Below are positions 4,348 through 57,051 of a stretch of DNA of 64,000 nucleotides, in pieces (position 1 is the first letter of the stretch; each line of letters opens with the position of its first letter). The notes under the pieces are model-generated. The model saw nothing but the letters and a program-made list of their open reading frames with translations, had not been told where the DNA came from and made no database searches. The stretch lies in the NCBI RefSeq assembly GCF_005222485.1, contig NZ_CP029078.1, positions 8,495,501-8,559,500 of the forward strand, written 5' to 3'. The position numbers and the translations under genes are program-made. Source of the DNA: Streptomyces griseoviridis (lineage in GTDB: Bacteria > Actinomycetota > Actinomycetes > Streptomycetales > Streptomycetaceae).

Positions 4348-5528
4348 GGCGGGTCGTCGTCGTCGGCGCCTCGGCCGCCGGCCTCGCCGCCGCCGAGACG
4401 CTGCGCCGCGGAGGCTTCGACGGCACCCTCACCCTCGTCGGCGACGAACCGCGGGCCCCCTACGACCGCCCGCCGCTGTCCAAGCAACTCCTCGCGGCGG
4501 AATGGGAGTCGGACCGGCTGACCCTGCGCGACCCCGCCGACCTGGCCGCCCTCGGCCTCGAACAGCGGCTCGGGGTCGCCGCCACCGGACTCCGACTGGC
4601 CGACAAGGTCGTCGAGTTGGCCGACGGCGCCGAACTCCCCTACGACGGGCTGATCGTGGCGACCGGCGTGCGGGCCCGCAGGCTGCCGGGCGAGGGCGCG
4701 CACGTGCTGCGGACCCTCGACGACGCGCTGGCGCTGCGGGAGCGGCTGGTGCCCGGGGTGCGGCTGGTGATCGTCGGCGCCGGGTTCCTCGGCGCCGAGG
4801 CCGCCGCCGTCGCCTGGCGGCTCGGCGCCCGGGTCACGCTGCTCGAACCGGCGCCCGTCCCGCTGGCGCACGCCGTCGGCACCGAGGTCGGCGCCGTCCT
4901 CACCCGGGCCCATCTGGACCGGGGCGTCGACCTGCGGTGCGGTGTCTCCGTCACCGAGGTGACCGAGGACGGCGTACGGCTGGCCGACGGCGAGGTGATC
5001 GACGCCGACGAGGTGCTGGTCGCCGTCGGCTCGGTCCCCAACACCGAGTGGCTCGAAGGCAGCGGCCTGACCCTCGGCGACGGCGTGGTCTGCGACGAGT
5101 ACTGCGGGGCCGCCGAGGACGTCTACGCGGCCGGTGACGTGGCGCGCTGGTACAACCCGCTGTTCCGCACCTCGATGCGGATCGAGCACCGCACCAACGC
5201 GGCCGAACAGGGCATGGCCGCCGCCCGCAACCTGCTCGACCCGCAGGCCCGCAAGCCGTTCGCGCCGGTGCCGTACTTCTGGTCCGACCAGTACGACATG
5301 AAGGTGCAGGCGTACGGCTACCTGCGCGGCCACGACGAGGTCGCCGTCGTGGAGGGCGACCTGTCCGAACGCCGGTTCGTGGCCGCGTACCGCACCGGCG
5401 ACCGGATGACCGGCGCGCTCGCGGTCGGCATGCCGCCCAAGGCGATCAGGACCTGGCGCCAGGCCATCGCGACGGGCACGTCCTGGACCGAGGCGCTCGG
5501 CACCGAGCCCGCGCCGACCGGGAGCTGA
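4344..5528 (+). CDS. FAD-dependent NAD(P)H:ferredoxin reductase
   Basis: A 394-residue pyridine-nucleotide oxidoreductase that completes the P450 electron chain. The N-terminal FAD motif (VVVVGASAAGLAAAETLRR), the central NAD(P) motif (VIVGAGFLGAEAAA) and the second FAD motif with an aspartate (VYAAGDVARW) appear in the usual order for the putidaredoxin-reductase family. The GTG at 4344 overlaps the ferredoxin stop, implying translational coupling. Having P450, ferredoxin and reductase together is less common in Streptomyces, where the reductase is often encoded elsewhere. Confidence 0.92.
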   Translation: MRRVVVVGASAAGLAAAETLRRGGFDGTLTLVGDEPRAPYDRPPLSKQLLAAEWESDRLTLRDPADLAALGLEQRLGVAATGLRLADKVVELADGAELPYDGLIVATGVRARRLPGEGAHVLRTLDDALALRERLVPGVRLVIVGAGFLGAEAAAVAWRLGARVTLLEPAPVPLAHAVGTEVGAVLTRAHLDRGVDLRCGVSVTEVTEDGVRLADGEVIDADEVLVAVGSVPNTEWLEGSGLTLGDGVVCDEYCGAAEDVYAAGDVARWYNPLFRTSMRIEHRTNAAEQGMAAARNLLDPQARKPFAPVPYFWSDQYDMKVQAYGYLRGHDEVAVVEGDLSERRFVAAYRTGDRMTGALAVGMPPKAIRTWRQAIATGTSWTEALGTEPAPTGS

Positions 5529-43800: not shown

Positions 43801-44171
43801 GAGGCGACGTCCTTGTCCAGGTGACGGCGCAGCTCCGTCACCGTCGCCGGGATCTCACGGCGGAACGCGGCCTGGTCGAGCCCGTCGTCCGCGACGACGG
43901 CCAGCAGCGCGCGGTTGCCGACGGCCGTCACGATCACGTGCCCGGTGCTGCACTGCGCGCTGATCTCGCGGAGCGTGCCGGTGGACCCCTGGTCGGCGAG
44001 CCGGTTGCCGAGCGAGAGGGTGGCGGCGGCCACGGCCGCCATGGACTCCGCGTGCGTCTTGCTGACGTCACTGGTGACGACCAGGCCGTCCGAGGTGGCC
44101 AGGACGCTTTCGTTGACACCCATCACCTTGTCCCGCAGAGAGACGAGGAGGTCGTTCACAGGGTCGCTCAT
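43797..44171 (-). CDS. Roadblock/LC7-domain protein, not in a conservon
   Basis: A 124-residue roadblock/LC7 protein (DPVNDLLVSLRDKVMGVNESVLATSDGLVVTSDV, then AESMAAVAAATLSLGNRLAD and HVIVTAVGNRALLAVVAD). It resembles CvnB, but no cvnA, C or D gene is adjacent. It belongs to a small island with the DUF4388-like gene and two more roadblock-like genes. The ATG at 44171 has AGAGGACG upstream. Likely a regulatory partner of a small GTPase encoded elsewhere. Confidence 0.85.
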   Translation of the reverse strand: MSDPVNDLLVSLRDKVMGVNESVLATSDGLVVTSDVSKTHAESMAAVAAATLSLGNRLADQGSTGTLREISAQCSTGHVIVTAVGNRALLAVVADDGLDQAAFRREIPATVTELRRHLDKDVAS

Positions 44172-44330
44172 GGCGTCCTCTTTCATGTCGAGCGCGTGCG
44201 TGAGGGAGTGGGACGGGGTGCGGTCGCGGCATCCCGGGACGCGGCACCGCCGCGCGGGTGTGACCTGGCTAATCGGCGTGCCGGCATCCGTGCGCCACGA
44301 CATCGTGATGAGGGCGGCGCGCTGGACATG

Positions 44331-45182
44331 TCAGGGTGCCCCGGTCGCGGGAGGGGCCGGCGCCGGCGTCGGGGCGTTGCGGCCGGGGAGTCTGCGGGGC
44401 AGTGGCACCGCGGCGGGCGGCGCGGGCACCGGGGCCGACGGCGTACGGGTCGCCGTGCTCGGCCGCTGGGGTGTGAGGGGCGCCGTCGGCTGCACCAGCC
44501 CGAGCGCGAGCAGCCTGCGCAGGTCGAGCATGACGGCGAAGAGACCGCGCCCGAGGGCGAAGGCGATGTCCCTCGGGGTCCTGCGGCCGTCCGTGTTGGC
44601 CAGCACGTCCTGGTGCCGGGCGGGCAACGCGCCGACGGCTCCCGGCAGTTGGGCGGGGGCCGCCAACTGCATGCGGGTGCGGGCGAATTCGGCGACCGAG
44701 CCGGGCCCGCCCGCCAGCAGTCCGGTGCGCCGGGAGATCTCCGTGACGAGCCGCTCGGGGGTGATGCCCGCGTTGCGGTACAGCACCGGGACGGGCTCGG
44801 TGACCTCCCAGCCCTCGGGACGGCTGAGGGAGAGCGCGAACGCGGCATCGAACAGCGCGCTCAGGCTGATGATCTCCAACTCGCCCGCGCCGACCAGCTC
44901 CTGGGCGACCAGTTCCTCGGCGAGACGGCCGTGGGTGGTGTCCGCGGCGCAGACCGCCGACCAGGCTTCCTCGGTGATCCGCCCCGACCTCAGCAGCAGG
45001 CTCTCGACGTTCGGGGCGGCGGGTGTCTCCATCGCCACCACGAGGCCGTCGCGGAGGTGGAGGGTGCCGCCGGGGGAGCCGGTCAGCCGGACGGTGCGGG
45101 ACTGCTTGCGGGACCGCAGATCCGCGAGCAGCGCGGGGATGTTGCGGGAGCCGGCGGCCGGCTCGGTGGTGTCGTCGATCAT
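44331..45182 (-). CDS. DUF4388-like signalling protein
   Basis: A 283-residue protein. The N-terminal part (IPALLADLRSRKQSRTVRLTGSPGGTLHLRDGLVVAMETPAAPNVESLLLRSGRITEEAW) has the DUF4388 pattern found in proteins linked to bacterial small-GTPase polarity systems. The middle is helical (ALGRGLFAVMLDLRRLLALGLV) and the C-terminus is a Pro-rich tail. Its ATG overlaps the stop of the roadblock-like gene upstream (ATGA), so the two are co-translated. Function unknown. Confidence 0.75.
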   Translation of the reverse strand: MIDDTTEPAAGSRNIPALLADLRSRKQSRTVRLTGSPGGTLHLRDGLVVAMETPAAPNVESLLLRSGRITEEAWSAVCAADTTHGRLAEELVAQELVGAGELEIISLSALFDAAFALSLSRPEGWEVTEPVPVLYRNAGITPERLVTEISRRTGLLAGGPGSVAEFARTRMQLAAPAQLPGAVGALPARHQDVLANTDGRRTPRDIAFALGRGLFAVMLDLRRLLALGLVQPTAPLTPQRPSTATRTPSAPVPAPPAAVPLPRRLPGRNAPTPAPAPPATGAP

Positions 45183-45532
45183 CGCAGCAGGTCGTCCGCG
45201 TGCTGTGCCAGGTCGCGCAGCGCCCAGGTGATGTTGGTCCGGTCCCGGTCGACGGTCGCGCACAGCAGCAGCGGGTCACCGGTCCGCTCCACCTGGAGCG
45301 TCACCAGGTGCCGGGTGGCGGTCGTCACGATCACGCTCTCCAAGTCGCCCTCGGCGCCGGCCTGATGGAGCCGGGTGCGGGCGATGTCGGCTATGTCACA
45401 GGCGTCCTGGCTGCCGCTGACGTCGCCGAGTTCTCCGTAGGAGAGGCCGGTCACCGCGTCCAGGAGCGCGGCTCCGCCGATGCCCTGTGTTTTCAGGGTG
45501 TCCCCGAGTGCGACATCGAGCGATGACAACAC
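45179..45532 (-). CDS. Roadblock-like protein, paralogue of the divergent gene at 45692
   Basis: About 117 residues with the roadblock/LC7-like fold (SSLDVALGDTLKTQGIGGAALLDAVTGLSYGEL, ESVIVTTATRHLVTLQVERTGDPLLLCATVDRDRTNITWALRDL). It aligns in length and pattern with the protein encoded at 45692. The start is uncertain: GTG 45532 or TTG 45529 follow AAGGGGGAA, while a GTG at 45559 would add a tail with no counterpart in the paralogue. It is coupled to the DUF4388-like gene. The A+T-rich region 45560-45691 must hold divergent promoters. Confidence 0.8.
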   Translation of the reverse strand: MLSSLDVALGDTLKTQGIGGAALLDAVTGLSYGELGDVSGSQDACDIADIARTRLHQAGAEGDLESVIVTTATRHLVTLQVERTGDPLLLCATVDRDRTNITWALRDLAQHADDLLR

Positions 45533-45691
45533 TTCCCCCTTAGGTCGCTCCGTCTGCACAGTACTTTATTTGCCAACTATTGCAACACTGGCCAAAGATG
45601 GCATTGTCTGAACGCGCGCGGTACATAAAGAGACCGTTCTTGCGCCACGACTGCTCGTCTTGAGGGTCGTCAAGGAATCGAGGGCACCACC

Positions 45692-46057
45692 GTGAACATT
45701 GAGACCACGCTCAAGGAAGCCATGGCCATCGAAGGGGCCGTCGGCGTGGCCCTGGTCGACTACGAGAGCGGCATGTCACTGGGCACGCTCGGCGGCGGCC
45801 CGCACCTCGACCTGGAGGTCGCGGCGGCCGGCAACACCGAGGTCCTGCGCGCCAAGCAGCGCACCCTGAAGTCCATCGAGATGGACGACCAGATCGAGGA
45901 CATCCTCATCACCCTCGGCCAGCAGTACCACCTGATCCGGCCACTGGTGAGCACGCGGGGCTCCCTCTTCCTCTACCTGGCGCTCGACCGCTCCCGCAGC
46001 AACCTCGCCCTCGCCCGCCACAGCCTCAAGCGCCTCGAAGCCGGCCTGGAGGTCTGA
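45692..46057 (+). CDS. Roadblock-like protein
   Basis: A 121-residue protein (IETTLKEAMAIEGAVGVALVDYESGMSLGTLGG, EDILITLGQQYHLIRPLVSTRGSLFLYLALDRSRSNLALARHSLKRLE). The same pattern is seen in the divergent paralogue at 45179-45532. A GTG start is used. The shared architecture suggests the two proteins form a heterodimer or act on the same GTPase; that is inference. Confidence 0.82.
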   Translation: MNIETTLKEAMAIEGAVGVALVDYESGMSLGTLGGGPHLDLEVAAAGNTEVLRAKQRTLKSIEMDDQIEDILITLGQQYHLIRPLVSTRGSLFLYLALDRSRSNLALARHSLKRLEAGLEV

Positions 46058-46206
46058 CCGCGAGCCCCCGGAGCGCGGCGCCACCGACCTCCCGGCCGGT
46101 CCGCGCCGACCGGTCCTGAATTCGCCGCACGGCCCTGGCCCGGGTGCTCCGCCCGCCGGTATACAAAGCCAGTCGAACCGGCAGCCGCGCACCCGGGAGG
46201 TCCTCC

Positions 46207-47130
46207 ATGAACCGAGCCCCGCACCCGACCCCGTCGGCGCCAGGCCCGCGCCGCGCCAGAACCGCCGCCGCGGCGGCCGCGGGCTGCGCCCTCGTCATGG
46301 GGCTCGCCGCCCCGGCCGCGGCGCACGGCCACGGCGCCACCCACCACGACCGCACCACCCGGTACGTGGCCCTCGGCGACTCCTACACCTCAGGACCGTT
46401 GATACCGCGCCAGGTCGACGCCGCCTGCGCCCGCTCCGACCGCAACTACCCCTCACTGGTGACGGCGGCCGGCCGCGCGGCCACGCTCGACGACGTCAGC
46501 TGCTCCGGCGCCACCACCGCCGAGATGTGGAAGGCCCAGGGCACCAACGGGCCCCAACTGGACGCCCTGAACCGGGACACCGACCTCGTCACCCTCCAGA
46601 TCGGCGGCAACGACATCGGGTTCGGGTCCATCATCGGGACCTGCGCCCGGCTCGGCGCCACGGACCTGGCGGGCGACCCCTGCCGGCGGTACTACACCTC
46701 CGGTGGCGTCGACCGGCTGGCGCTGACCGTCCTGCGGACGGCGCCGAGGATCGCCCGGGTGCTGAAGGACGTCCGCGCGCGGGCACCGCACGCCCGGGTC
46801 CTGGTCGTCGGCTACCCCGACCTGCTGCCCGACGACGGCAGCGGTTGCCATCCGACGGTGCCGTTCGCCGCCAAGGACTTCCCGTACCTGCGGGACACCG
46901 AGAAGCGGCTCAACCTGATGCTGCGGCTGGTGGCCGCGCTGCACCACGCCGACTACGTCGACACCTACGGCCCGACGGTCGGCCGCGACATGTGCAAGGC
47001 GCCCGCCGACCGCTGGATCGAGCCCCTCCAGCCCACCTCACCGGCCGCGCCCGCCCACCCCAACGCCCTGGGCGAGCAGGCCATGGCGCGCGCGGTGCTC
47101 GCCCGGCTCGACCGGGGACACCGGCGCTGA
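46207..47130 (+). CDS. Secreted SGNH/GDSL-family lipase or esterase
   Basis: A 307-residue exported hydrolase. A signal peptide (about 1-40: Arg-rich start, AAAAAAGCALVMGLAAPAAA) precedes block I GDSYTSG with nucleophile Ser59, block III GGNDIGFGS and block V HPNALGEQA with His284. Six cysteines in the mature protein fit the disulfide-rich Streptomyces SGNH lipases. It cleaves esters outside the cell. GGGAGG lies 6 nt before the ATG. It is upstream of the RiPP precursor gene on the same strand but 191 bp away, and need not belong to it. Confidence 0.9.
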   Translation: MNRAPHPTPSAPGPRRARTAAAAAAGCALVMGLAAPAAAHGHGATHHDRTTRYVALGDSYTSGPLIPRQVDAACARSDRNYPSLVTAAGRAATLDDVSCSGATTAEMWKAQGTNGPQLDALNRDTDLVTLQIGGNDIGFGSIIGTCARLGATDLAGDPCRRYYTSGGVDRLALTVLRTAPRIARVLKDVRARAPHARVLVVGYPDLLPDDGSGCHPTVPFAAKDFPYLRDTEKRLNLMLRLVAALHHADYVDTYGPTVGRDMCKAPADRWIEPLQPTSPAAPAHPNALGEQAMARAVLARLDRGHRR

Positions 47131-47168
47131 CCCGCGCTCACGCTCGATCGGCGGACATGCCTGAGCGG

Positions 47169-47203
47169 ACGTCAATTCTATGTACTTGAAGAGGATTTGA
47201 CGT
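47169..47203. promoter_or_regulatory. Inverted repeat and A+T-rich promoter region of the RiPP precursor gene
   Basis: ACGTCAA (47169-47175) and TTGACGT (47197-47203) form a 7-bp inverted repeat about 120-155 bp before the precursor start. The stretch 47171-47216 is A+T-rich, and TTGAAG at 47186 with TGATTA 18 nt later is a possible promoter. The rest of 47131-47321 carries no gene. Confidence 0.45.
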
Positions 47204-47321
47204 TCGCGATGATTAACCGCCGTTGCCAAGAGGAAGGTTCACGGGGCCACCGGCGTGTGATCGTCCCGGGCCCGCCCGGAAAGACCGCACGTCACGCCCG
47301 TTCCGAACAGGAGGTGCAGTG

Positions 47322-47402
47322 ATGAAGCTTCTCTTCGCCATGCGCAACAAGGTCGCCGCCCGCAAGAGCCTGAAGGCGAGCGCCTGGTACATCTGGTACT
47401 GA
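47322..47402 (+). CDS. Tryptorubin-type (atropopeptide) RiPP precursor peptide
   Basis: A 26-residue gene missed by ordinary length cut-offs. The last six residues are AWYIWY, which from memory is the core hexapeptide of tryptorubin A. The 20-residue leader (MKLLFAMRNKVAARKSLKAS) is basic and can form an amphipathic helix. AGGAGGTG (47309-47316), a near-perfect Shine-Dalgarno, lies 5 nt before the ATG, implying high translation. A cytochrome P450 gene follows at 47554 after a hairpin, the minimal two-gene layout of atropopeptide clusters. The peptide is made on the ribosome, cross-linked by the P450 at its Trp and Tyr side chains, and freed of leader by a protease not encoded nearby. The literature calls the gene trpA, unrelated to tryptophan synthase. 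Confidence 0.95.
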   Translation: MKLLFAMRNKVAARKSLKASAWYIWY

Positions 47403-47455
47403 CCTGCACCAGCCACCGATCCCGCTCCGGCCGCTGCCGGGCGGGTCGTCGGCAC

Positions 47456-47489
47456 CGTCGTCCCGTGCGGCCACCCGCACGGGACGACG
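47456..47489 (+). terminator. Hairpin (attenuator or partial terminator) between RiPP precursor and P450 genes
   Basis: A perfect 15-bp stem (47456-47470 with 47475-47489) and CCAC loop lie 54 bp after the precursor stop and 65 bp before the P450 start. No run of T follows. In RiPP operons such hairpins let most transcripts end after the precursor gene, giving substrate in excess of the modifying enzyme. A weaker hairpin (GTCCCGCG / CGCGGGGAC) follows at about 47492-47513. Confidence 0.75.
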
Positions 47490-47553
47490 CTGTCCCGCGC
47501 GCACCGCGGGGACGCCCGGCACCGGCGACCCCACCCACCGCTCCGGAGGGCCG

Positions 47554-48612
47554 ATGTCCCCGCTGTCCCCGTCGTCCGCCGCCTCGGCCCACCGCACCAC
47601 CGTGTTCGCACCGCGGCTCGCCGCCCTGCTCCGCGACCACCTCGGCGAGGACGTGTTCCGGCTCGAACCCGACACCGTGGGCGTCGCCGGCCCCGAGGTC
47701 GCCGACCGGATCCTCGCGGCCCGCCGGGCCACCGAGACCGAGCGGCCCACCTTCAAGCCCCTGCAAGGACGCTCCATCTCCCGTACCGAGGCGTCCGCCG
47801 TCACCCGCACCATCGGCACCGACGTCCGGGACGCGCTGGCCGGCCCGCTGCCCGAGAACGTCGACCTCTCCGGAGCCTGGCCGCTGACCGGACACCTCTT
47901 CCTGCGGGACCTGATCCTCGGCCGGGACCCCGCGCGGCTGCGGATGCTGATGAGCAGGACCCTCGAACTGACCCCCAAACTCACCTGGTCGGTGATCGCC
48001 GTCGGCGCGGCCCTGCCCGGCTGGCCCCGGCCGGGGGACCACCTCACCAGCCTCGGCGACCGGGCCGCCCGCGCGGTCGGCTACCAGGACCGCCGCTACG
48101 CGATGGGCGTCTACCGCAGGGCCGCGGCCCCGGTCTGCTTCACCGTCTCCACGCTGGTCTCCAACGCCCTCTGGCTCGGCGCACCCTTCGCCGACGACAT
48201 GCCGAACCGGCACATCATCCACGAGTCCCTGCGCCTGCTGCCGCCCTCCTGGAACATCCTGCGCAACGCGTCACCTGAGTACGGCGCCATCGACGACCGG
48301 ATCGGCGAGGGCGACGACGTCCTGGTGCTGCCGCTGCTCTCGCACCGCGACCCGGCGCTGTGGGAGGACCCCGACAGCTTCCGGCCCGAGCGGTGGGAGC
48401 ACCTCGACCCCGACCGCACCCCCGGCTACCTGCCCTTCGGCCACTCCTCGGAACGCTGCTGGGGACGGCACATGGTGATGCCGCTCGCCGAACTCCTGCT
48501 GGACCTCGTCCGCGAGGCGGGCCTTGCGGTGGACCGGGACCAGAGCGTCGGGAAGGTGCCGCTCCTCGGGCTGCTCGGCGTGGAGGAAGTCCGCCTGCGC
48601 AAGGGAAATTGA
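47554..48612 (+). CDS. Atropopeptide-cross-linking cytochrome P450 (tryptorubin type)
   Basis: A compact 352-residue P450, about 50 residues shorter than usual, mostly by loss at the N-terminus. ExxR is Glu224-Ser-Leu-Arg227, followed by the FRPERW motif (276-281) and haem ligand Cys302 in FGHSSERCWGR. The I-helix segment (about 188-207, AAAPVCFTVSTLVSNAL) lacks the usual acid-threonine pair of AGxET, which may favour phenol or indole coupling over oxygen insertion. In tryptorubin biosynthesis one P450 forms all the carbon-carbon and carbon-nitrogen cross-links of the core peptide. GGAGGG lies 3 nt before the ATG. No ferredoxin gene is adjacent, so electrons must come from elsewhere. The literature calls such genes trpB. 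Confidence 0.92.
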   Translation: MSPLSPSSAASAHRTTVFAPRLAALLRDHLGEDVFRLEPDTVGVAGPEVADRILAARRATETERPTFKPLQGRSISRTEASAVTRTIGTDVRDALAGPLPENVDLSGAWPLTGHLFLRDLILGRDPARLRMLMSRTLELTPKLTWSVIAVGAALPGWPRPGDHLTSLGDRAARAVGYQDRRYAMGVYRRAAAPVCFTVSTLVSNALWLGAPFADDMPNRHIIHESLRLLPPSWNILRNASPEYGAIDDRIGEGDDVLVLPLLSHRDPALWEDPDSFRPERWEHLDPDRTPGYLPFGHSSERCWGRHMVMPLAELLLDLVREAGLAVDRDQSVGKVPLLGLLGVEEVRLRKGN

Positions 48613-48624
48613 CGGCCTGTCAGC

Positions 48625-49563
48625 TCACTGGGGCGGTGGCGTTCCCTGGTCCGTCGGCCGGGCGCGCATCCACTCCCGGGTCCCGAACGACGCGCACGCC
48701 CGTGACGCCACCCGCGCCGACCGGCGCAGCGCCGCCGCGAACCCCGCCGTCGTCAACCCGCCCTGGAGCGCCAGGTGATGGGCGAGGGCTCCGTGCAGCA
48801 CGTCCCCCGCGCCCAGAGTGTCCACGACCCGCACCGGGGGCACCTCCACCGCGCCGTCACCGTCGGGGCCCGCCCACAGCAGGGGCCGGCCGCCCCGGCT
48901 GACCGCCGCGAAGCCCACCCCGCGCTCCCGCAGGAACCGCAGGGTGTCGGCCGGGGTGCGGGTGCCGGGCGGCCGGAAGTCGGCCGAGCAGACCGCGACA
49001 TCGACGAACGGCAGCAGCTCCTCACTGCCGTCCTTCCAACTGCCCCCGTCCAGCAGGGTCGTTCGGCCCGCGGCCCGGCCCGCGCGGGCGGCGGCGACGG
49101 CCAGCTCCCGGTGGTGGCCGTCGAGTTCGACGAGGTCGCAGGCCGCCACCGACCGGTCGAGGTCCGCGGGCGGTGCGAGCCGGTGGGCGCCCGCGTTGGT
49201 GGAGGCGACGGCTCTCTCTCCGGTGGCCTGTGTCACCAGGATCGACGACACGGCGGGCGGGCCGGCCGCGTCGGGGGCGAGGTCGGTGACGGTCACGCCG
49301 AGCCGGGTCAGGTCCGCGGCGGCAGCGACACCCAGCGGATGCGCGCCGATCGCGGTCAGCAAGGTCGCCGCGCCGCCGAGATGCGCGAAGACCGCGGCAG
49401 CGCCCGCGGCCGGACCGCCCGCGGCGACGGTCTGGTCGAGCGCCGTCAGCTTCTCGTCGGAGCCCGGCACCCGCTCCACCAGATGGACCACGTCAAGGGT
49501 GCACAGCCCGACGAACAGACCGCGCGGGCGCCGGGTCCTTTCGGTCACCACGTCACCGACCAC
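48625..49563 (-). CDS. PfkB-family carbohydrate kinase
   Basis: A 312-residue sugar or nucleoside kinase of the ribokinase family. The N-terminal GLFVGLCTLDVVHLVERVPGSDEKLTALDQTVAAGGPAAGAAAVFAHLGG and the ATP-binding/catalytic motif DTLGAGDVLHGALA (about 252-265, catalytic Asp in GAGD) define it. The substrate cannot be told from sequence. Start candidates are GTG at 49563, 49551 and 49548; GGGAAGG lies just before the first. It is convergent with the RiPP P450 gene with an 11-bp gap and is probably not part of that cluster. Confidence 0.85.
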   Translation of the reverse strand: MVGDVVTERTRRPRGLFVGLCTLDVVHLVERVPGSDEKLTALDQTVAAGGPAAGAAAVFAHLGGAATLLTAIGAHPLGVAAAADLTRLGVTVTDLAPDAAGPPAVSSILVTQATGERAVASTNAGAHRLAPPADLDRSVAACDLVELDGHHRELAVAAARAGRAAGRTTLLDGGSWKDGSEELLPFVDVAVCSADFRPPGTRTPADTLRFLRERGVGFAAVSRGGRPLLWAGPDGDGAVEVPPVRVVDTLGAGDVLHGALAHHLALQGGLTTAGFAAALRRSARVASRACASFGTREWMRARPTDQGTPPPQ

Positions 49564-49629
49564 CTTCCCGAGCCTCGGGGCGTCGTCGGAAGTACACCAG
49601 AAGAAGCCGCCCGCCGCCCGGGAGCGGGC

Positions 49630-50007
49630 TCAGCCCGACCGGTCGTCGTAGCTCTTCCTGCTCGTCTCGATCTCCCCGATGTGCTCGGTGGCCCAGTCGG
49701 CGAGCGCGAGCGCGGGCGGGATCAGGCTCCTGCCGTTCGCGGTCAGCTCGTACTCGACCCGGGGCGGCACCTGCGCGTACACGGTCCGTGAGACCAGGCC
49801 GTCGCGCTCCAGATGGCGGAGGTTCAGCGTCAGCATCCGCTGCGAGATCCCCGGGATCATCCGCTGCAGGTCGGTGAAGCGCAGCCGACCCTCGTCGAGG
49901 GTGGCCACGATCAGCAGCGTCCACTTGTCGCCGATCCGGTCCATCACGGACCGGAGCGTGCGCCCGCCGTCGCCCCGGATCGCGCAGGTGTGGCGGTACT
50001 TCGGCAT
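49630..50007 (-). CDS. HxlR-family regulator
   Basis: A 125-residue winged-helix regulator (IGDKWTLLIVATLDEGRLRFTDLQRMIPGISQRMLTLNLRHLERDGLVSRTVYAQVPPRVEYELTANGRSL), diagnostic for HxlR/DUF24. It carries an N-terminal Cys in YRHTCAIRG, as in redox- or quinone-sensing members. The ATG at 50007 has AGGGGGAC at 5 nt. It diverges from the DoxX-like gene at 50114 and probably controls it. Confidence 0.9.
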   Translation of the reverse strand: MPKYRHTCAIRGDGGRTLRSVMDRIGDKWTLLIVATLDEGRLRFTDLQRMIPGISQRMLTLNLRHLERDGLVSRTVYAQVPPRVEYELTANGRSLIPPALALADWATEHIGEIETSRKSYDDRSG

Positions 50008-50027
50008 GGCGTCCCCCTGTTCGTCAC

Positions 50028-50041
50028 GCACACGCGTGTGC
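50028..50041. promoter_or_regulatory. Palindrome upstream of hxlR
   Basis: GCACACGCGTGTGC is a perfect 14-bp palindrome 21-34 bp upstream of the hxlR start and within the divergent promoter region to the DoxX-like gene. It is a candidate autoregulatory operator. Confidence 0.5.
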
Positions 50042-50113
50042 CTTTTGTGAGCCTCTCGCCCGTCACTCATCATGAGGCAACTCACATCGGGTAACCGTCG
50101 ACTTGGGGTCACT

Positions 50114-50479
50114 GTGCACATCGCCTACTGGATCGTCGCCGCGCTGCTCGCGGTCTTCTACGTCTACGGGGGAGGGAAGAAGCTCCTCCAGAGCCAGGAG
50201 GAGCTGCGGCCCATGATGGGCTGGGTCGACCAGGTGCCCATGCCCGCCGTCCGGGCCATCGGAGCGCTCGAGGTGCTCGGCGCCGCCGGGCTCGTACTGC
50301 CTCCGCTCACGGGCATCGCCGTCGGCTGCGCGGTGGCCGCCGCCGTCGGCCTGGCGCTGATCCAGGTCGGGGGCATCGTCGTGCACGTCTCGCGCGGCGA
50401 GAGCAAGGTCATAGCCCTGAACATCGCCCTGCTGGTGGCCGCGGGCGCCGCAGCCTGGCTGGCGACCGACTGGCTCTGA
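50114..50479 (+). CDS. DoxX-family membrane protein
   Basis: A 121-residue protein with four hydrophobic segments (AYWIVAALLAVFYVYGGGKKLL, IGALEVLGAAGLVLPPL, AVGCAVAAAVGLALIQVGGIVVH-like and ALNIALLVAAGAAAWLA) and the DoxX/DUF4267-like signature GGKKLLQSQEELRPMMGWVDQVP. Divergence from hxlR is a frequent arrangement for DoxX genes involved in electrophile or redox stress. The GTG at 50114 is chosen; an in-frame ATG at 50072 would add 14 residues. Confidence 0.85.
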   Translation: MHIAYWIVAALLAVFYVYGGGKKLLQSQEELRPMMGWVDQVPMPAVRAIGALEVLGAAGLVLPPLTGIAVGCAVAAAVGLALIQVGGIVVHVSRGESKVIALNIALLVAAGAAAWLATDWL

Positions 50480-50692
50480 CCGTCCGGCCCAGCGACCGCC
50501 GGCGCGCGGATCGAGGCCCCGGCGCTGGGCACGGTGTCCCTCCCGGGCTGTCCGGCCGAACTCCCGTCCCTGGTAAGGGAGATCGGCGACGGCGGTCTCG
50601 TCGTCGCCGTGCGCGAGGCGCCGCTCGCCGACGCGGAGAGCGCCTGGACGGCCCCCGAGGAGCCCGGAGTCCGCACCGTCCTCGTCCCGTGA
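50480..50692 (+). pseudogene. Remnant C-terminus of an NAD(P)-dependent oxidoreductase
   Basis: Directly after the DoxX stop the same frame stays open for about 70 codons, reading ARIEAPALGTVSLPGCP, then EIGDGGLVVAVREAPLADAESAWTAPEEPGVRTVLVP and a stop at 50690-50692. The pattern 'PLADAESAW...PGVRTVLV' is the usual C-terminal end of zinc-type quinone or alcohol oxidoreductases. No start or Rossmann part is present, so it is read as a decayed tail. Confidence is moderate because the fragment is short. Confidence 0.5.
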
Positions 50693-51063
50693 CCCCCTCC
50701 AGCCCCTCCCGCACCACGCGGACTTGGCCGAAAATAGACGCCCAGGGGCCGGACCTGACGGGATCGGACCCCGGTTCGGCACCGGCCGACCCCGCAGGGT
50801 GCTGGTGACTTGGCACCAGATGTCCGAGGAACCCGACCAGCCTCAACTACCACACCTGTTCGCCACGATGGCCGTTTCTCGACGAAGTGAACTCTTGTGA
50901 GCGCTGGGGCCCTTGTTGGGGTACTCAAGGTCGACACCATGACTAGCATGAGCGGCGTGCTTGATCCGGAACAGTCACGGCCCTGGCGGGCCGTTCTCCG
51001 GATCGTCGGCGACCTCACAGCCGCCCACCCCACTCCTGCTCACACGGACCGAGGGACCGCGGA
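50693..51063. other. 371-bp gap with no gene; promoter region of conservon 2
   Basis: I see no supported gene here. The stretch 50840-50960 is richer in A+T (for example CTCAACTACCACACCTG and ACCATGACTAGCATGAGCG) and probably contains the conservon 2 promoter. Short frames here lack ribosome binding sites and recognisable sequence. Confidence 0.5.
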
Positions 51064-52848
51064 ATGCCAGTGCCTGCTCGCCCCCGCCAGCGCCGATCCG
51101 CGAAAGGGGCGCGTTCCTCGCCCGTGCTGTCCCCCGTCTTCACGGCTCTCCTCCTCGTGACGGCCGCCGCCGGCGCCGCCACCACCGTCGTCGCACCCGA
51201 CAACGCCCGGACCTGGGTGCTCGGCACCGCCGTCGCCGCCTGGTGCTGCGTCGCCGTCGCCGTGGCCGTCGCCTCCAGCCAGCTCCGCAGGGCCCGCCGT
51301 GACGCGGCGGCCCGCGGCGGCGAACTGGAGATGACCAAGAACAACTGGATGCAGCAGAGCGCCGAGGCGTCCCAGCTGGTCAGCGTCACCCTGCCGGAGA
51401 TCGCCAAGCGCGTGAAGAACGGCGCGAGCGCCGCCGAGGCACTGCCCGGCGTCCCCGCCCCCTCCGACCCGCACCAGCGACAGATGCTGCACCTCTTCGC
51501 CGCCGAACTCGCGGAATCGGTTCGGCGCCGTGACGACGCGCAGGCCGAACTGCGCGCCCTCCGCGGCGAACTGGCCCGCGGCACCGAGGAGATGGAGCGC
51601 CTCACCAAGGAGATCCTGCCCAGCGCCGTGGCCATGCTGCGCGAAGGCAGCTCGGCCAACACCGTGCTCGCCAGGTTCGACTGGCCGCAGAGCACCCTGC
51701 TGCGCGACTCCTCGGAGACGTTCGTCCGCGAACTCGCCTACAGCGAACGCCGGTCCGCCGCCGCCCAGGCCGCCTCGGCGAAGGCGCTCAGCCGGGTCCA
51801 GGCCAAGACCGTCAGCATGCTCGCCGACCTGCGCGACATGCAGGACCGGCACGGCGGCGAGGTCTTCGGCGACCTGCTCCGCCTCGACCACAGCACCTCC
51901 CAGCTCGGCCTGATGACCGACCGCCTCGCCCTGCTCATGGGCGGCCGCTCCAGCAGGGTCTGGAACAAGCCGATCGTCGTGGAGAGCATCCTGCGCGGCG
52001 CCGTCGGCCGGATCGCGGCCTACCGCCGGGTGCGGCTGCACTCGTCGAGCAAGGCGGCCATCGCCGGCTTCGCGGCCGAGGGCGTCATGCACCTCCTCGC
52101 CGAACTCATGGACAACGCCGCCAACTTCTCGCCGCCCATCGACGAGGTGCACGTCTACGTCGAGGAACGCAGCGCCGGCCTCGTCGTCACCATCGAGGAC
52201 AGCGGCCTGAAGATGGCCGCGGCCGCCATGCGACGGGCCGAGGAGTCCGTCTCGGGACAGGTCGTCGACCTCGCCTCCCTCCAGGGCACCCGGCTCGGCC
52301 TCGGCGTCGTCGGACGGCTCGCCGTCAAGTACGGCATCAGCGTCAACTACCGGCCCTCCTCACGCGGCGGCACCGGCGTCGTCGTCCTCCTCCCGCCCCA
52401 GCTGGTCGCCCAGCAGCGGGACGCGGTCACCCACCACGAGCAGCGCCCCCGGCACGCCGCGCCGTCGGCGCCCGCCGCCCCGGCCGCTCCCGCCCCCCGC
52501 GCCGTCGAGGACTCACTGCCGATGCGCCACCAGCAGGACGCCCTGCCCGAGGAACCCGCCCGCCGCGCCGACATCCCGCGCACCCGCGGCGCCGAGGCCA
52601 CCCCCGGCGGACTGCCCGTGCGCGCCCCCGGACGCACCATGGCCGAAGCGGACCGCGACCGCCAGCGGTCCGCCCCCGAGCCGCCCGCCACCGCGCACGG
52701 CGAACCCGGCCCGGCCCGGGACGCGGGCACCCGCTTCGGTGCCTTCCACCGAGGCCGCCAGCAGGGCGCCGGCGGCACCGCACGCCCCGGCGGCGACGAC
52801 ACCGCGCTCCCCGGCGACGACGGGCACGAGGCCGTGGCCGACGACTAG
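51064..52848 (+). CDS. cvnA: Conservon 2 sensor-kinase-like protein, CvnA family
   Basis: A 594-residue membrane protein. Two transmembrane helices near the N-terminus (about 21-44 and 51-70) with a tiny external loop are followed by a long helical linker, a dimerisation segment with LLRLDHSTSQLGLMTDRLALLMG (about 275-300), and a GHKL ATPase (AELMDNAANFSPP, IEDSGLKMA, GLGVVGRLAVKYG). In the G1 box a lysine stands where glycine is usual (DSGLKM), so kinase activity is uncertain. The last 140 residues are a disordered Pro/Ala/Arg/Glu tail. It leads a conservon with cvnB, C, D and a P450. Confidence 0.9.
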   Translation: MPVPARPRQRRSAKGARSSPVLSPVFTALLLVTAAAGAATTVVAPDNARTWVLGTAVAAWCCVAVAVAVASSQLRRARRDAAARGGELEMTKNNWMQQSAEASQLVSVTLPEIAKRVKNGASAAEALPGVPAPSDPHQRQMLHLFAAELAESVRRRDDAQAELRALRGELARGTEEMERLTKEILPSAVAMLREGSSANTVLARFDWPQSTLLRDSSETFVRELAYSERRSAAAQAASAKALSRVQAKTVSMLADLRDMQDRHGGEVFGDLLRLDHSTSQLGLMTDRLALLMGGRSSRVWNKPIVVESILRGAVGRIAAYRRVRLHSSSKAAIAGFAAEGVMHLLAELMDNAANFSPPIDEVHVYVEERSAGLVVTIEDSGLKMAAAAMRRAEESVSGQVVDLASLQGTRLGLGVVGRLAVKYGISVNYRPSSRGGTGVVVLLPPQLVAQQRDAVTHHEQRPRHAAPSAPAAPAAPAPRAVEDSLPMRHQQDALPEEPARRADIPRTRGAEATPGGLPVRAPGRTMAEADRDRQRSAPEPPATAHGEPGPARDAGTRFGAFHRGRQQGAGGTARPGGDDTALPGDDGHEAVADD

Positions 52849-52935
52849 CTTGCCGGGCCCCGCGCACCGCCCCGGGCCCCGCACCCACCATTCCCGCAGA
52901 TCGCCGTACTTCGCTTGATTGGAGGAACGGGCCGG

Positions 52936-53391
52936 GTGACCCTCGACCGGTCAGCGCCCGCCCCACCCACCATGGAGACCACTGACAACAGCCTCACCTG
53001 GCTCCTCAAGAACCTCTTGGAGCGCACGCCTGGCACCCGCCATGCGGTCGTTCTGTCGCGGGACGGCCTCAAACTGTGCTGGACGGAGCACCTGACGCTC
53101 GATCAGGCCGACCAGCTCGCGGCCATCTGCTCCGGCATCCAGGCCCTCGCCCAGGGCGCCTCCGTGGAGTTCGGCGACGGCTCGGGCGGCGTCCGGCACT
53201 CCATGACGGAGTTCCACGGCGGCCTGCTGTTCATCGTGGAGGCCGGTGAGGGCGCGCACCTCGCGGTCGTCGCCCAGGAGAGCGCCGACCCGGGCGTCGT
53301 CGGCCACCAGATGACCGAGCTGGTCGAACAGATCGGCGACCATCTCCGTGCCGAACCGCGCACGCCGGCCGTCCGGGGTGCCGCCAGGTGA
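52936..53391 (+). CDS. cvnB: Conservon 2 roadblock/LC7 protein, CvnB family
   Basis: A 151-residue roadblock/LC7 protein (SLTWLLKNLLERTPGTRHAVVLSRDGLKLCWTEHLTLDQADQLAAICSGIQALAQGASVEFGDG, GGLLFIVEAGEGAHLAVVAQESADPGVVGHQMTELVEQIGDHL), the standard CvnB form. I chose the GTG at 52936 with GGAGGA upstream; an ATG at 52972 is closer to the conserved start and is also possible. Its stop overlaps the cvnC start. Confidence 0.92.
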   Translation: MTLDRSAPAPPTMETTDNSLTWLLKNLLERTPGTRHAVVLSRDGLKLCWTEHLTLDQADQLAAICSGIQALAQGASVEFGDGSGGVRHSMTEFHGGLLFIVEAGEGAHLAVVAQESADPGVVGHQMTELVEQIGDHLRAEPRTPAVRGAAR

Positions 53392-53744
53392 CCAACAAAC
53401 CCGTGGACGTCGGTGACCCGGACCGCCTGTACACGGTCACGGGCGGACGCAGCGAGGCCGACGACACGTTCGACCTGGTGACCCTCATCGTCAGCGAGTG
53501 CGAGCCGACGGCCGGGATGCAGTCCGAGCACGTGCGGATCCTCGAACTGTGCCGTCACCCGACGGCACTCGTCGAGGTGTCCGCCGAGCTGAAGATGCCG
53601 ATCACCGTCGTCCGCATCCTCCTCGGCGACCTCCACGACATGGGCCGGATCAGCGCCCGCCACCCCCGTGCGGCCGCGTCCCTCGCGTCCCTCCCCGAAA
53701 CCGCCCTGCTCCAGGAGGTGCTCCATGGGCTCCGCAACCTCTGA
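53388..53744 (+). CDS. cvnC: Conservon 2 DUF742 protein, CvnC family
   Basis: A 118-residue DUF742 protein (DRLYTVTGGRSEADDTFDLVTLIVSECEPTAGMQSEHVRILELCRHPTALVEVSAELKMPITVVRILLGDLHDMGRISARHP, ending LLQEVLHGLRNL). It starts with GTG in a GTGA overlap with cvnB and overlaps cvnD by 20 bp. Function not established. Confidence 0.93.
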   Translation: MTNKPVDVGDPDRLYTVTGGRSEADDTFDLVTLIVSECEPTAGMQSEHVRILELCRHPTALVEVSAELKMPITVVRILLGDLHDMGRISARHPRAAASLASLPETALLQEVLHGLRNL

Positions 53745-54342
53745 GCTGCCCTCCCAGCGCACGCCGCTGGCCGACGACGCCGAGACCGGACTGAAGATCG
53801 TCGTCGTGGGCGGGTTCGGCGTCGGCAAGACCACCCTGGTCCGCTCGGTGAGCGAGATCAGACCGCTCAACACCGAAGAGGTGATGACCCAGGCGGGCCA
53901 GGGCGTCGACGAGACGGTCGGCGTGGAGCGCAAGACCACCACGACCGTCGCCTTCGACTTCGGCCGCATCAGCCTCAACCAGCGCATGGTGCTCTACCTG
54001 TTCGGCGCCCCCGGCCAGGAGCGCTTCTGGTTCCTCTGGGACCGCCTCTTCTCCGGCACGCTCGGCGCCGTCGTCCTCGTCGACACCCGGCGCATGCAGG
54101 ACTCCTGGTACGCGATAGACCGGCTCGAACACCACAAGACCCCGTTCGTGGTGGCCGTCAACCGCTTCGACGAGGACGAGAGCCGGTTCTCGCTCCAGGA
54201 GATCCGCCAGGCCCTCGCCCTGGGCGACCACGTGCCGATGGTCGACTGCGACGCACGCGTACGGGCCTCGGGCAAAGAGGTCCTCATCACTCTGGTGGAC
54301 CACCTCTACGCAATGGCACTGTCCCAGGAGACGACACCGTGA
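53725..54342 (+). CDS. cvnD: Conservon 2 GTPase, CvnD family
   Basis: A 205-residue GTP-binding protein with the P-loop GGFGVGKTT (29-37), the family segment KTTTTVAFDFGRISLNQRMVLYLFGAPGQERF and the specificity loop VAVNRFD, close to the NKxD box but with Arg-Phe in place of Lys-x. It is more similar in motif pattern to the conservon 1 GTPase than to other GTPases. AGGAGG lies 6 nt before its ATG. Its stop overlaps the P450 start. Confidence 0.93.
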   Translation: MGSATSELPSQRTPLADDAETGLKIVVVGGFGVGKTTLVRSVSEIRPLNTEEVMTQAGQGVDETVGVERKTTTTVAFDFGRISLNQRMVLYLFGAPGQERFWFLWDRLFSGTLGAVVLVDTRRMQDSWYAIDRLEHHKTPFVVAVNRFDEDESRFSLQEIRQALALGDHVPMVDCDARVRASGKEVLITLVDHLYAMALSQETTP

Positions 54343-55604
54343 GCGACACACCCGGCTCCCCGACCGCGACCACGCCGCCACCCGGCTGCCCGGCCCACGC
54401 CGACGCCGTGCACATGGGCGGCCTGGAGTACCAGCAGACGCCGTCGCAGATGTACCGCACCATGCGCCGCGAGCACGGCGCGGTCGCCCCGGTGCTGCTC
54501 GACGGCGGGGTACCGGCCTGGCTGGTCCTCGGATACCCCGAGGTGTCCTACGTGACCAGCCACGACGAGCTGTTCGCGCGGGACTCCCGGCGCTGGAACC
54601 AGTGGCCGAACATCCCGCCGGACTGGCCGCTGATGCCGTACGTCGGCTACCAGCCGTCCGTGCTGTTCGCCGAGCGCGAGGAGCACCAGCGGCGGGCCGG
54701 TGTCATCACCCAGGCCCTCGAGGGCGTCGACCAGTTCGAGCTGGCCCGCGAGTGCCAGCTGATCGCCGAGCGGCTGATCAGCGCGTTCTCCGGCAGCGGC
54801 CAGGCCGAGCTGATGAGCATGTACGCGCACGCCCTGCCGGCCCGCGGGGTGCTGTGGATGTGCGGCATGCCGCCCGGCACCGTCGACACCGAACAGCTCG
54901 TCGACGACCTGCGGATCTCCCTCGACGCCTCCGAGGGCGACGACCCGGTGGCCGCCTACGGCCGGGTCGGCGAGCGGATCATGCGGCTGGTGCGGGAGAA
55001 GCGGGAACGCCCGGGACCCGACGTCACCTCCCGGATGATCCAGGACCCCGCCGGGCTCACCGACGAGGAGATCGTGCAGGACCTGATCTCCGTCATCGCC
55101 GCGGCCCAGCAGCCCACCGCCAACTGGATCTGCAACACCCTGCGGCTGCTGCTCACCGACGAACGGTTCGCGGTCAACGTGTCGGGCGGCCGGGTCAGCG
55201 TCGGCGACGCGCTCAACGAGGTGCTCTGGCTCGACACCCCGACCCAGAACTTCATCGGGCGGTGGGCCGTGCGCGACATCCAGCTCGGCGGGCGCCTGAT
55301 CCGCGAGGGCGACTGCCTCGTCCTCGGCCTCGCGGCGGCCAACACCGACCCGCAGATCTGGCCCGAGTCCCATGTCGGCGCCGAGAACTCCGCGCACCTC
55401 TCCTTCAGCAACGGCGAACACCGCTGCCCCTACCCGGCACCGCTCCTCGCGGACGTCATGGCGCGCACGGCGGTGGAGACGCTCCTCGAGCACCTGCCCG
55501 ACATAGTGCTGGGTGTCAAGCCCGCCGAGCTGACCTGGCGGCCGTCCATCTGGATGCGCGGACTGACCGCGCTCCCCGTGCGGTTCACGCCCTCCGCGCG
55601 CTGA
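54339..55604 (+). CDS. Conservon 2 non-canonical P450, CYP157-like, ExxR replaced by ExxW
   Basis: A 421-residue P450-fold protein, last gene of conservon 2. The haem ligand is Cys363 in LSFSNGEHRCPYPAPLL, again with proline after the cysteine. The K-helix reads Glu294-Val-Leu-Trp297, so tryptophan replaces the ExxR arginine, as reported for CYP157-family proteins. The I-helix has AAQQPT (255-260) instead of AGxET, so both the oxygen-activation pair and the K-helix salt bridge are altered. The GTGA overlap with cvnD makes co-translation likely. Catalytic activity is doubtful; a haem-sensing or structural role is inferred. Confidence 0.9.
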   Translation: MSDTPGSPTATTPPPGCPAHADAVHMGGLEYQQTPSQMYRTMRREHGAVAPVLLDGGVPAWLVLGYPEVSYVTSHDELFARDSRRWNQWPNIPPDWPLMPYVGYQPSVLFAEREEHQRRAGVITQALEGVDQFELARECQLIAERLISAFSGSGQAELMSMYAHALPARGVLWMCGMPPGTVDTEQLVDDLRISLDASEGDDPVAAYGRVGERIMRLVREKRERPGPDVTSRMIQDPAGLTDEEIVQDLISVIAAAQQPTANWICNTLRLLLTDERFAVNVSGGRVSVGDALNEVLWLDTPTQNFIGRWAVRDIQLGGRLIREGDCLVLGLAAANTDPQIWPESHVGAENSAHLSFSNGEHRCPYPAPLLADVMARTAVETLLEHLPDIVLGVKPAELTWRPSIWMRGLTALPVRFTPSAR

Positions 55605-55613
55605 TGGCCCACC

Positions 55614-55647
55614 CCTCCGCGTACCCGGTCGGCCGGGTACGCGGAGG
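55614..55647. terminator. Bidirectional terminator between two convergent P450 genes
   Basis: A perfect 15-bp stem (55614-55628 with 55633-55647) and 4-nt loop lie 10 bp after the conservon 2 P450 stop and 41 bp from the end of the convergent P450 gene. Confidence 0.88.
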
Positions 55648-55688
55648 AGACAGATCGACGACCGGGCCGGCCGCGCCGATGGGGCGGA

Positions 55689-56915
55689 TCAGGCCGACGT
55701 CGGCGTGAAGCGCACCGGGAGCGCCTGCGGGCCGCGCGTGAACACGCCCAGCTCGACCGGGTCGAAGCCGTCCGCGAGCCGCAGATCCGGCATCGCGTCG
55801 AGCAGCTGGTTGACCCCGATCTCCACCTCCGCCTTGGCGAGCAGCGCGCCGACACAGAAGTGCCGGCCGAGCGCGAACGCCAGATGGTCGGCCGCCGCCG
55901 AGAACGCCGACGTCGTGGTCAGGTCGTCACGGAAGATGTCGAAGCTGTCCGGCTCCCGGTAACGGCTCCCGTCCCGGTTCGCCGAGCCGATCAGGCAGGT
56001 CACGGTGGCGCCCGCGGGTATGGTGCCTCCGCTGACCTCGACGTCCGTGGCCGTCTGCCGCATGATCATGTGCACCGGCGGGGTGTACCGCAGGGTCTCC
56101 GCGAACGCCGCGGGGATGAGGCTCCGGTCCGCCTGGACGGCCGCCAACTGGTCCGGGTGGAGCAGCAGGTTGGCGATGATGCTGGCGATCGCCTTGTCGG
56201 TCGTCTCACCGCCCGCGGCGAGCAGCAGGCTGCAGAACGCCTTGATGTCCTCGTCGCTCATCCGGACACCGTCGACCTCGGCGGCGCAGAGCGTGGAGAG
56301 CAGGTCGTCGCCCAGGTTGTCGCGCCGGTTCCTGATGATCGGGATCATGTACTCGGCGAACTCGATCCGGGTGCGCTCGCCCGCCGCCGTGACCTCCGCG
56401 TCCCCGGACAGGTTGCCGAGGAACGCGATGACGGCCGTGTACCAGCCGTGGAACCGGGCGTGATCGGCCTTGTCGAGTCCGAGCATGTCCGCGATCACGT
56501 TGACCGGGAATCTGGTCGCGTAGTCGCTCACGATGTCGGCCGAGCCCGACTGCCGGAAGCTGTCGATGAGTTCGCGTGAGTTGCGCTCGATGACCGGCAG
56601 GAACTTCTCCTGGAGGTCGCTGCCCCGGAAGGCGGGGGCCACGAGCGCCCGCCGCACCGCGTGCTCGCGTCCGCTCATCTGGAGGATCGTCTTGCCGTGG
56701 ACCGGCTCGATCTGCCAGTTGTAGTTGTCGGTCGTGAACTCCGACTTCTTGTCCTTGAAGACCCGCTCGACGTCCTCGTAGCGGGAGATGATCCAGCTCT
56801 GGGTGGGCTCGTGCCAGATCAGGGGTTCTTTCTCCCGCATGACCGCGTAGGCGGGGTAGGGGTTCTCGGCGAACTCCGACGAGAGGATGTCGGGCACCTG
56901 CTGTGCAGTGGACAC
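55689..56915 (-). CDS. Cytochrome P450, canonical (CYP107-like style)
   Basis: A 408-residue P450 with all motifs: AGGETT (234-239), ExxR as Glu273-Thr-Leu-Arg276, and the haem loop FALGRHFCVGALLAKAE with Cys354. The GTG at 56915 follows GAGGAG; the frame is open upstream but without homology. It is convergent with conservon 2 and separated from it by a terminator, so it is an independent unit. It is not followed by a ferredoxin gene. Substrate unknown. Confidence 0.92.
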   Translation of the reverse strand: MSTAQQVPDILSSEFAENPYPAYAVMREKEPLIWHEPTQSWIISRYEDVERVFKDKKSEFTTDNYNWQIEPVHGKTILQMSGREHAVRRALVAPAFRGSDLQEKFLPVIERNSRELIDSFRQSGSADIVSDYATRFPVNVIADMLGLDKADHARFHGWYTAVIAFLGNLSGDAEVTAAGERTRIEFAEYMIPIIRNRRDNLGDDLLSTLCAAEVDGVRMSDEDIKAFCSLLLAAGGETTDKAIASIIANLLLHPDQLAAVQADRSLIPAAFAETLRYTPPVHMIMRQTATDVEVSGGTIPAGATVTCLIGSANRDGSRYREPDSFDIFRDDLTTTSAFSAAADHLAFALGRHFCVGALLAKAEVEIGVNQLLDAMPDLRLADGFDPVELGVFTRGPQALPVRFTPTSA

Positions 56916-56998
56916 GGAACTCCTCGAGATAGACAAGTGGCCTTCGACGAGTAGGTTATTGATCTTGCGGTGGCTCAAACAGCTCAGTCCTGGCCGAA

Positions 56999-57015
56999 GT
57001 TGAGCACTTCTCAAC
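56999..57015. promoter_or_regulatory. Inverted repeat in the divergent P450/lipoprotein promoter region
   Basis: GTTGAG-cactt-CTCAAC is a 6-bp inverted repeat in the A+T-richer part of the 319-bp region 56916-57234, about 85 bp upstream of the P450 start. It may be an operator for one or both genes. Confidence 0.45.
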
Positions 57016-57051
57016 CTTGCGGTACGAGGGCCCCGTCCGTACACCCGTGGT

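Follow-up and report, generated by a model that had tools for sequence, protein, structure and literature searches.

Atropopeptides reportedly go back to two founding papers, Nanudorn 2022 and Reisberg 2020, the latter of which is said to present the total synthesis of tryptorubin A. The family, for which more than 650 clusters have been published, is defined by a P450 of the class, a KSLK-type motif in the leader peptide and a tryptophan at position 2 of the core (PMC11450843). In the aligned precursors, the KSLK motif occupies positions 17-20, residues 7-8 of that alignment being present in very few members (PMC11450843). The published tryptorubin P450s TryB/TrpB are WP_007820080.1 and WP_093582223.1. 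The sequence of tryptorubin B is given as WYIWY (PMC11450843). Moreover, LauA together with LauB1 gives tryptorubin B, and expression of the jum cluster yields amyxirubin B (PMC11450843).

The window analysed here is a stretch of 64,000 nucleotides from Streptomyces griseoviridis (contig NZ_CP029078.1), to which all coordinates refer; the features described below are located on its plus strand. The cluster found in it is itself of an already known kind. What is new here is a perfect 15-bp hairpin in the gap between the precursor gene and the P450 gene.

A precursor gene and a P450 gene of the atropopeptide type

The precursor gene comprises 26 codons (47322-47402; ATG at 47322, the stop codon ending at 47402) and is translated into the 26 residues MKLLFAMRNKVAARKSLKASAWYIWY, i.e. 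the leader MKLLFAMRNKVAARKSLKAS followed by the terminal core AWYIWY, just as the first-pass annotation of this DNA had read it. The KSLK motif, whose role is that described in PMC11450843, is found at residues 15-18 (codons at 47364-47375) and the core at residues 21-26 (47382-47399), the boundary between leader and core being placed by analogy; W22 is hence the tryptophan at core position 2. The ribosome-binding site AGGAGGTG at 47309-47316, with a spacing of 7 nt between AGGAGG and ATG, confirms the earlier description as near-perfect and is kept in most of 21 aligned clade members. Due to an in-frame GTG at 47319, just 5' of the ATG, the precursor possibly starts one codon earlier. All 26 positions are matched by NCBIfam model NF038372 ('tryptorubin family RiPP precursor') with 57.5 bits and an E-value of 1.2e-15, the curated cut-off being 33 bits. 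The size claimed for the gene therefore stands, but the remark that such a gene would usually be left unannotated has to be softened, as the current family library of NCBI holds a model for it. A six-frame search of the window gives three occurrences of [KREP][SP]LK and a single one of W[YF]xW[YFWI]-stop. The latter lies in the precursor, which also gives the single match to NF038372 in the whole 8.96 Mb genome. Based on this single core-type pattern and single model match, the AWYIWY precursor is not a product of chance.

Further upstream, a recurrent block corresponding to 47205-47270 was seen by eye in many of the 21 aligned clade members. It contains GATTA, followed by the dyads GGGAAG-TTCC and a GTGATCTTCAC-like one, and is perhaps a promoter or operator. 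The block is weaker in the window, and none was seen in L009, L136, L137 and L122 in this alignment by eye.

The gene for the P450 (47554-48612) starts 151 nt downstream of the precursor gene on the same strand, is preceded by a GGAGG ribosome-binding site at 47545-47549 and encodes 352 residues, which score 56 bits against Pfam p450 (cut-off 22.8), in line with the small P450 expected from the first reading. A scan of sequenced genomes afforded 106 stretches with a relative of this P450; the analysis was continued with the best 80. In all 80 of these best loci a precursor lies upstream of the P450, and in 78 it is of the KSLK type and within 1.2 kb. The other two carry KNLK (L075, at about 4750-4850) and RSFK (L055, at 4787-4861); a further KNLK precursor was observed in L130. 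Both motifs are off the list of leader motifs demanded by the CoreFinder step (PMC11450843). Identical P450s also recur across collections, for example in L128 and L013 (S. hygroscopicus) and in L111 and L020 (S. seoulensis).

A P450 phylogeny had been named earlier as the check on membership in the atropopeptide clade. In a quick IQ-TREE run without bootstraps, covering 115 rows, the 109 ingroup rows lie on one side of a branch (SH-aLRT 97) that separates them from six other P450s of the same genome, and the window P450 falls into a set of 24 rows (SH-aLRT 96) together with L078, which represents the jum contig NZ_VCLA01000160.1. Since the ingroup was gathered with the window P450 itself as query, and the outgroup branches are very long, this tree cannot prove membership alone, and the precursors beside the kept relatives appear to be the stronger evidence. 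Judged from sequence, 47309-48612 thus carries every defining feature of atropopeptides that can be tested in this way, including the class P450 beside the precursor, whereas the product is a prediction. The tryptorubin-type reading of the first-pass annotation is accordingly upheld by NF038372, by KSLK and Trp2, by the precursors in all of the best 80 loci and by the P450 tree.

Regarding the extent of the cluster, six flanking proteins were compared with 109 atropopeptide loci using tblastn at E 1e-30. The GDSL hydrolase, which flanks the pair together with a PfkB kinase, was detected in two loci (40 and 42% identity), in both cases away from the pair, and the other five proteins gave no match in the 109 loci at this threshold. 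The scope of this comparison is limited: 29 of the 109 loci are represented by 3-kb stretches with little flank, some others are truncated at contig ends, and a threshold of E 1e-30 would overlook distant relatives of the shorter proteins. Given the near absence of the flanking proteins from other loci, the unit appears to consist of precursor and P450, with neighbours that do not travel with the pair. No second P450, as found in the laurentirubin-type cluster, adjoins the pair, and only one P450-like ORF was recognized by motif at 44000-52000. Two P450s at 54339 and 55692 were rejected as tailoring enzymes because they belong to or abut a gene set at 51064-57044 (histidine-kinase-like ATPase, roadblock, DUF742, GTPase and P450, with the second P450 on the opposite strand) which we take to be a conservon-like operon. 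Among the other loci, 9 of 78 stretches show a second P450-like ORF by a simple motif (L024, L027, L033, L034, L042, L046, L048, L061 and L083); these are possible clusters of the laurentirubin kind, whose products would bear additional cross-links.

Precursors of this type are common in the genus: 44 of 392 genomes, this one included, contain a match to the model at E 0.001, with scores above the cut-off in 42, while no match was obtained in 14 control genomes. Among 107 tree rows with an assigned core, AWYIWY is found in 35, AWYLWY in 24 and AWYFWY in 19. In this count, some species appear twice because they are present in two collections; the cores of L075 and L130 were assigned manually, and L055 and P0086 are not included. 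The label AWYIWY or other changes at least 15 times on the P450 tree, and the sister rows of the window (L009, L136, L137) carry AWYLWY. These repeated changes fit the published remark that the tryptorubin core possibly arose several times (PMC11450843). All in all, the cluster is an intact, ordinary atropopeptide cluster with the founding core, whose system, core and chemistry have been published.

A hairpin between precursor and P450

The hairpin in the precursor-P450 gap is located at 47451-47494, with the perfect 15-bp stem at 47456-47489. This is the position at which the balance between precursor and P450 would be set. The microcin C operon has a terminator that separates its tiny precursor gene from the first modifying gene, and as a result the precursor RNA accumulates over the RNA of the enzymes (PMC6495379). 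By analogy, such an arrangement would suit a P450 whose peptide substrate is produced in excess. In the sva system, addition of a ribosome-binding site in front of the P450 raised the yield 100-fold, which indicates that P450 output is limiting there (PMC11450843). Following the precursor stop codon, the hairpin would likely end or protect most transcripts and thereby leave the substrate in excess over the enzyme, as in microcin C; that it sets how much precursor and P450 are made is likely. Beyond this, it is proposed tentatively that precursor, RNA hairpin and P450 form a conserved three-part design, in which the hairpin serves the whole family as an RNA switch, or as a partial terminator/stabiliser, that sets substrate far above enzyme, and has persisted in Actinomycetota and Pseudomonadota despite sequence change. 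If true, the hairpin would add an unrecognised third element to a cluster that is among the smallest for natural products. A serious competing explanation, if likewise one of less than even odds, is that the gap holds an ordinary Streptomyces transcription-end hairpin without any role in the precursor:enzyme ratio, the P450 being transcribed from its own promoter.

Folding statistics bear on both explanations. The gap of 151 nt is more stably folded than shuffled versions of itself (z -4.0; none of 200 shuffles was as good). Strong local hairpins, defined as a best 44-nt local fold within the first 120 nt of a gap that no more than 5% of 60 shuffles equal, occur in 56 of 79 gaps (78 loci and the window). 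The corresponding counts are 14 of 79 for the region upstream of the precursor gene, 16 of 77 for that following the P450 gene and 3 of 79 within the P450 gene. For comparison, generic gaps of the window's genome were taken from twenty 20-kb stretches, in which a simple script had called 247 genes; these also beat their shuffles in 23 of 55 codirectional, 9 of 17 convergent and 1 of 17 divergent cases, and the first two of these rates favour an ordinary transcription-end hairpin. Against it, the atropopeptide gaps exceed the codirectional ones (Fisher p 0.001, for rows that are related and not independent). From these rates, the precursor-P450 gap looks more like a transcript end than the interior of an operon. 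Terminator-like (U-run) sites are absent from 46900-48800, and a promoter scan of the same interval found nothing. Within the 10 nt after the hairpin, a mean of 2.0 T was counted over 107 stretches (window included), 5 of which have 5 T. As the GC hairpin of the window is not followed by a T run, it is not a textbook intrinsic terminator, if it ends transcription at all, and the missing U-run counts towards the ordinary hairpin. The weakest hairpins (-11 to -17 kcal/mol) were observed in L070, L072, L126, L131 and L133, a single AWYIWY clade with short gaps that includes two duplicate pairs; this clade offers a natural contrast for studying the role of the hairpin.

Compensatory changes speak against a hairpin of the ordinary kind. 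Of the 24 rows in the tree set to which the window belongs, 17 were aligned (alignment A1); the duplicates L111 and L128 were left out, as were L014, L017, L020, L030 and L031, whose best hairpin was off the sequence pattern, so that A1 leans towards structure. Here, 95.2% of the stem is paired and both partners have changed in 6 of 16 pairs; for each of the five covariation measures, all 500 shuffles fell short of the observed value. These changes support the hairpin in the window's own clade. The stem cells of A1 further include 31 G-U and 2 A-C combinations. Because G-U pairs form only in the sense RNA, they point to RNA rather than a DNA cruciform, although the selection of stems by folding of the sense strand biases towards this outcome. 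Alignment A3, comprising 11 loci of another group, is 98.5% paired and too uniform to show covariation beyond shuffles (81 to 168 of 500 reach the observed values), which again leaves room for an ordinary hairpin; these 11 loci, among them the manually trimmed L065, remained from 21 tried, after 4 had failed the trimming pattern and 6 more had been excluded manually.

A search with the hairpin model R1 gave the hairpin site as best match in its own genome (40.7 bits on the sense strand), the next match scoring 23.8 bits; on the opposite strand, the same site is listed with 36.2 bits and E 8e-6. In 101 genomes of the genus, more than 50 bits were reached only at three atropopeptide loci, two of which (G003, G068) are identical to or are R1 model rows, while G016 had not been used in building R1. 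At E 0.001, however, some match occurs in 42 of the 101 genomes, mostly at 29-40 bits, and these weak matches look like generic GC hairpins. Among precursor-positive genomes, G010, G019 and G023 have no R1 match and G036, G048 and G081 have one elsewhere only. The idea of the hairpin as a unique genomic element was thus partly rejected, and R1 describes the hairpin of one clade, not a family-wide sequence. Rfam gave no match to the hairpin up to E 1.

In the main texts of PMC11450843 and PMC12352619, a gap hairpin is not mentioned by such words, and a literature search combining atropopeptide and hairpin terms gave no atropopeptide paper among the matches listed. For intergenic hairpins of this placement in other systems, the literature search yielded the microcin C paper. 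For these main texts, this supports 'not named so' rather than 'never described'. In practical terms, the hairpin represents a cheap and testable handle on yield. It could also back the assignment of precursors whose motif is off the strict KSLK list, such as KNLK (L075, L130) or RSFK (L055).

The P450 and the predicted product

In the P450, the ExxR motif is formed by E224 and R227 and the haem ligand is C302 in FGHSSERCWG; all three residues are invariant in 40 of 40 aligned P450 rows (window included). The AlphaFold2 model (mean pLDDT 74, pTM 0.75) places residues 177-208 in one long helix, which is taken for the I-helix. This stretch reads APVCFTVST, with A192, P193, C195, F196, T197 and S199 invariant in the 40 rows. 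Canonical P450s carry an acid residue before the I-helix threonine. Such an acid is absent here, and since APxCFTxS is common to all 40 rows, its absence is a family trait, which may have a bearing on the use of oxygen for coupling rather than hydroxylation. A fold search with the model returned P450s in the 50 matches listed, at TM values of only about 0.4-0.5, and hence names no nearest functional relative. Among solved structures, the best match to the sequence is 9ulw (E 2e-10), covering residues 210-319 only.

From published relatives, the following course can be suggested. The leader would dock on the P450 and the KSLK motif would thread the core into the haem pocket, where three bonds would be made, i.e. 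a Trp-Trp carbon-carbon, a Trp-Tyr carbon-nitrogen and a Trp-backbone carbon-nitrogen bond, at the cost of four hydrogens. The same loss of four hydrogens is published for varsorubin B1, in which these three types of bond also occur (PMC11450843). Removal of the leader by an unlinked protease would then give tryptorubin A with a predicted m/z of 897.393 (computed for AWYIWY minus 4 H), and a peptidase might further remove the alanine, affording tryptorubin B with a predicted m/z of 826.356 (WYIWY minus 4 H). No peptidase family was found among 15 neighbouring proteins searched against Pfam, 3 of which matched no family, and this agrees with the published unlinked-protease model. The hexapeptide AWYIWY is the core of tryptorubin A, which fits the WYIWY of tryptorubin B given above. 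Overall, the locus is with high confidence a two-gene atropopeptide cluster of the tryptorubin type, with a P450 predicted to cross-link AWYIWY and host peptidases that would then trim the peptide, likely to tryptorubin A and, after loss of the alanine, B.

A shared core need not mean a shared set of bonds, as several varsorubin isomers arise from one core and laurentirubin combines the sequence of tryptorubin B with a further bond made by a second P450 (PMC11450843). An unlikely alternative is therefore that this cluster, while of the same type, sets another bond pattern on AWYIWY, e.g. a single Trp-Trp link as in scabrirubin and varsorubin B2a, and yields a new isomer instead of tryptorubin A. 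Published P450s of the family form one to three bonds, a single one of them can convert one core into several isomers (PMC11450843), and the AWYLWY cores of the window's nearest tree relatives point in the same direction. Yet the jum and amyxirubin P450s gave an identical product at 59% identity (PMC11450843), and the tryptorubin B obtained with LauA and LauB1 stands beside a P450 named S. laurentii (P0086; known by name, it may not be LauB1) that is 76% identical to the window's. That the cluster is degenerate or silent, with both genes there but unexpressed or non-functional, is very improbable, for the missing I-helix acid that might suggest it is the family trait noted above, the P450 is open over 352 codons with its residues invariant in 40 rows (itself included), its GC content by codon position (74/52/94%) is like that of used Streptomyces genes, and the ribosome-binding sites of both genes are intact. 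With tryptorubin A and B as likely products, one more genome is predicted to make the rigid peptide tryptorubin A, and a biosynthetic gene of 26 codons can be spotted from raw sequence.

Comparison with known systems

Biarylitides share with this locus the cross-linking of aromatic side chains by a P450 and the minimal cluster size, but are made from a five-residue precursor encoded by an 18-bp gene (PMC13417212), unlike the 26-residue precursor with leader described here. The microcin C operon of E. coli resembles the locus in the hairpin between a tiny precursor gene and the first modifying gene (mccA-mccB; PMC6495379); peptide and enzymes are unrelated, and the hairpin is a shown terminator there, its function being inferred here. 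Closer in kind is the lau cluster of Streptomyces laurentii (laurentirubin B), with the tryptorubin B formed by LauA/LauB1 (PMC11450843) and the P450 likeness of P0086; it differs by a second P450 adding an ether bond, none of which adjoins the present pair. The jum cluster of Streptomyces jumonjinensis (L078) agrees in architecture, in a P450 of 76% identity from the same supported tree set and in the type of gap hairpin (alignment A1), its core being AWYIWW instead of AWYIWY. Finally, the founding tryptorubin A cluster (try/trp) has the same order of precursor and P450, the KSLK leader and the same core AWYIWY.
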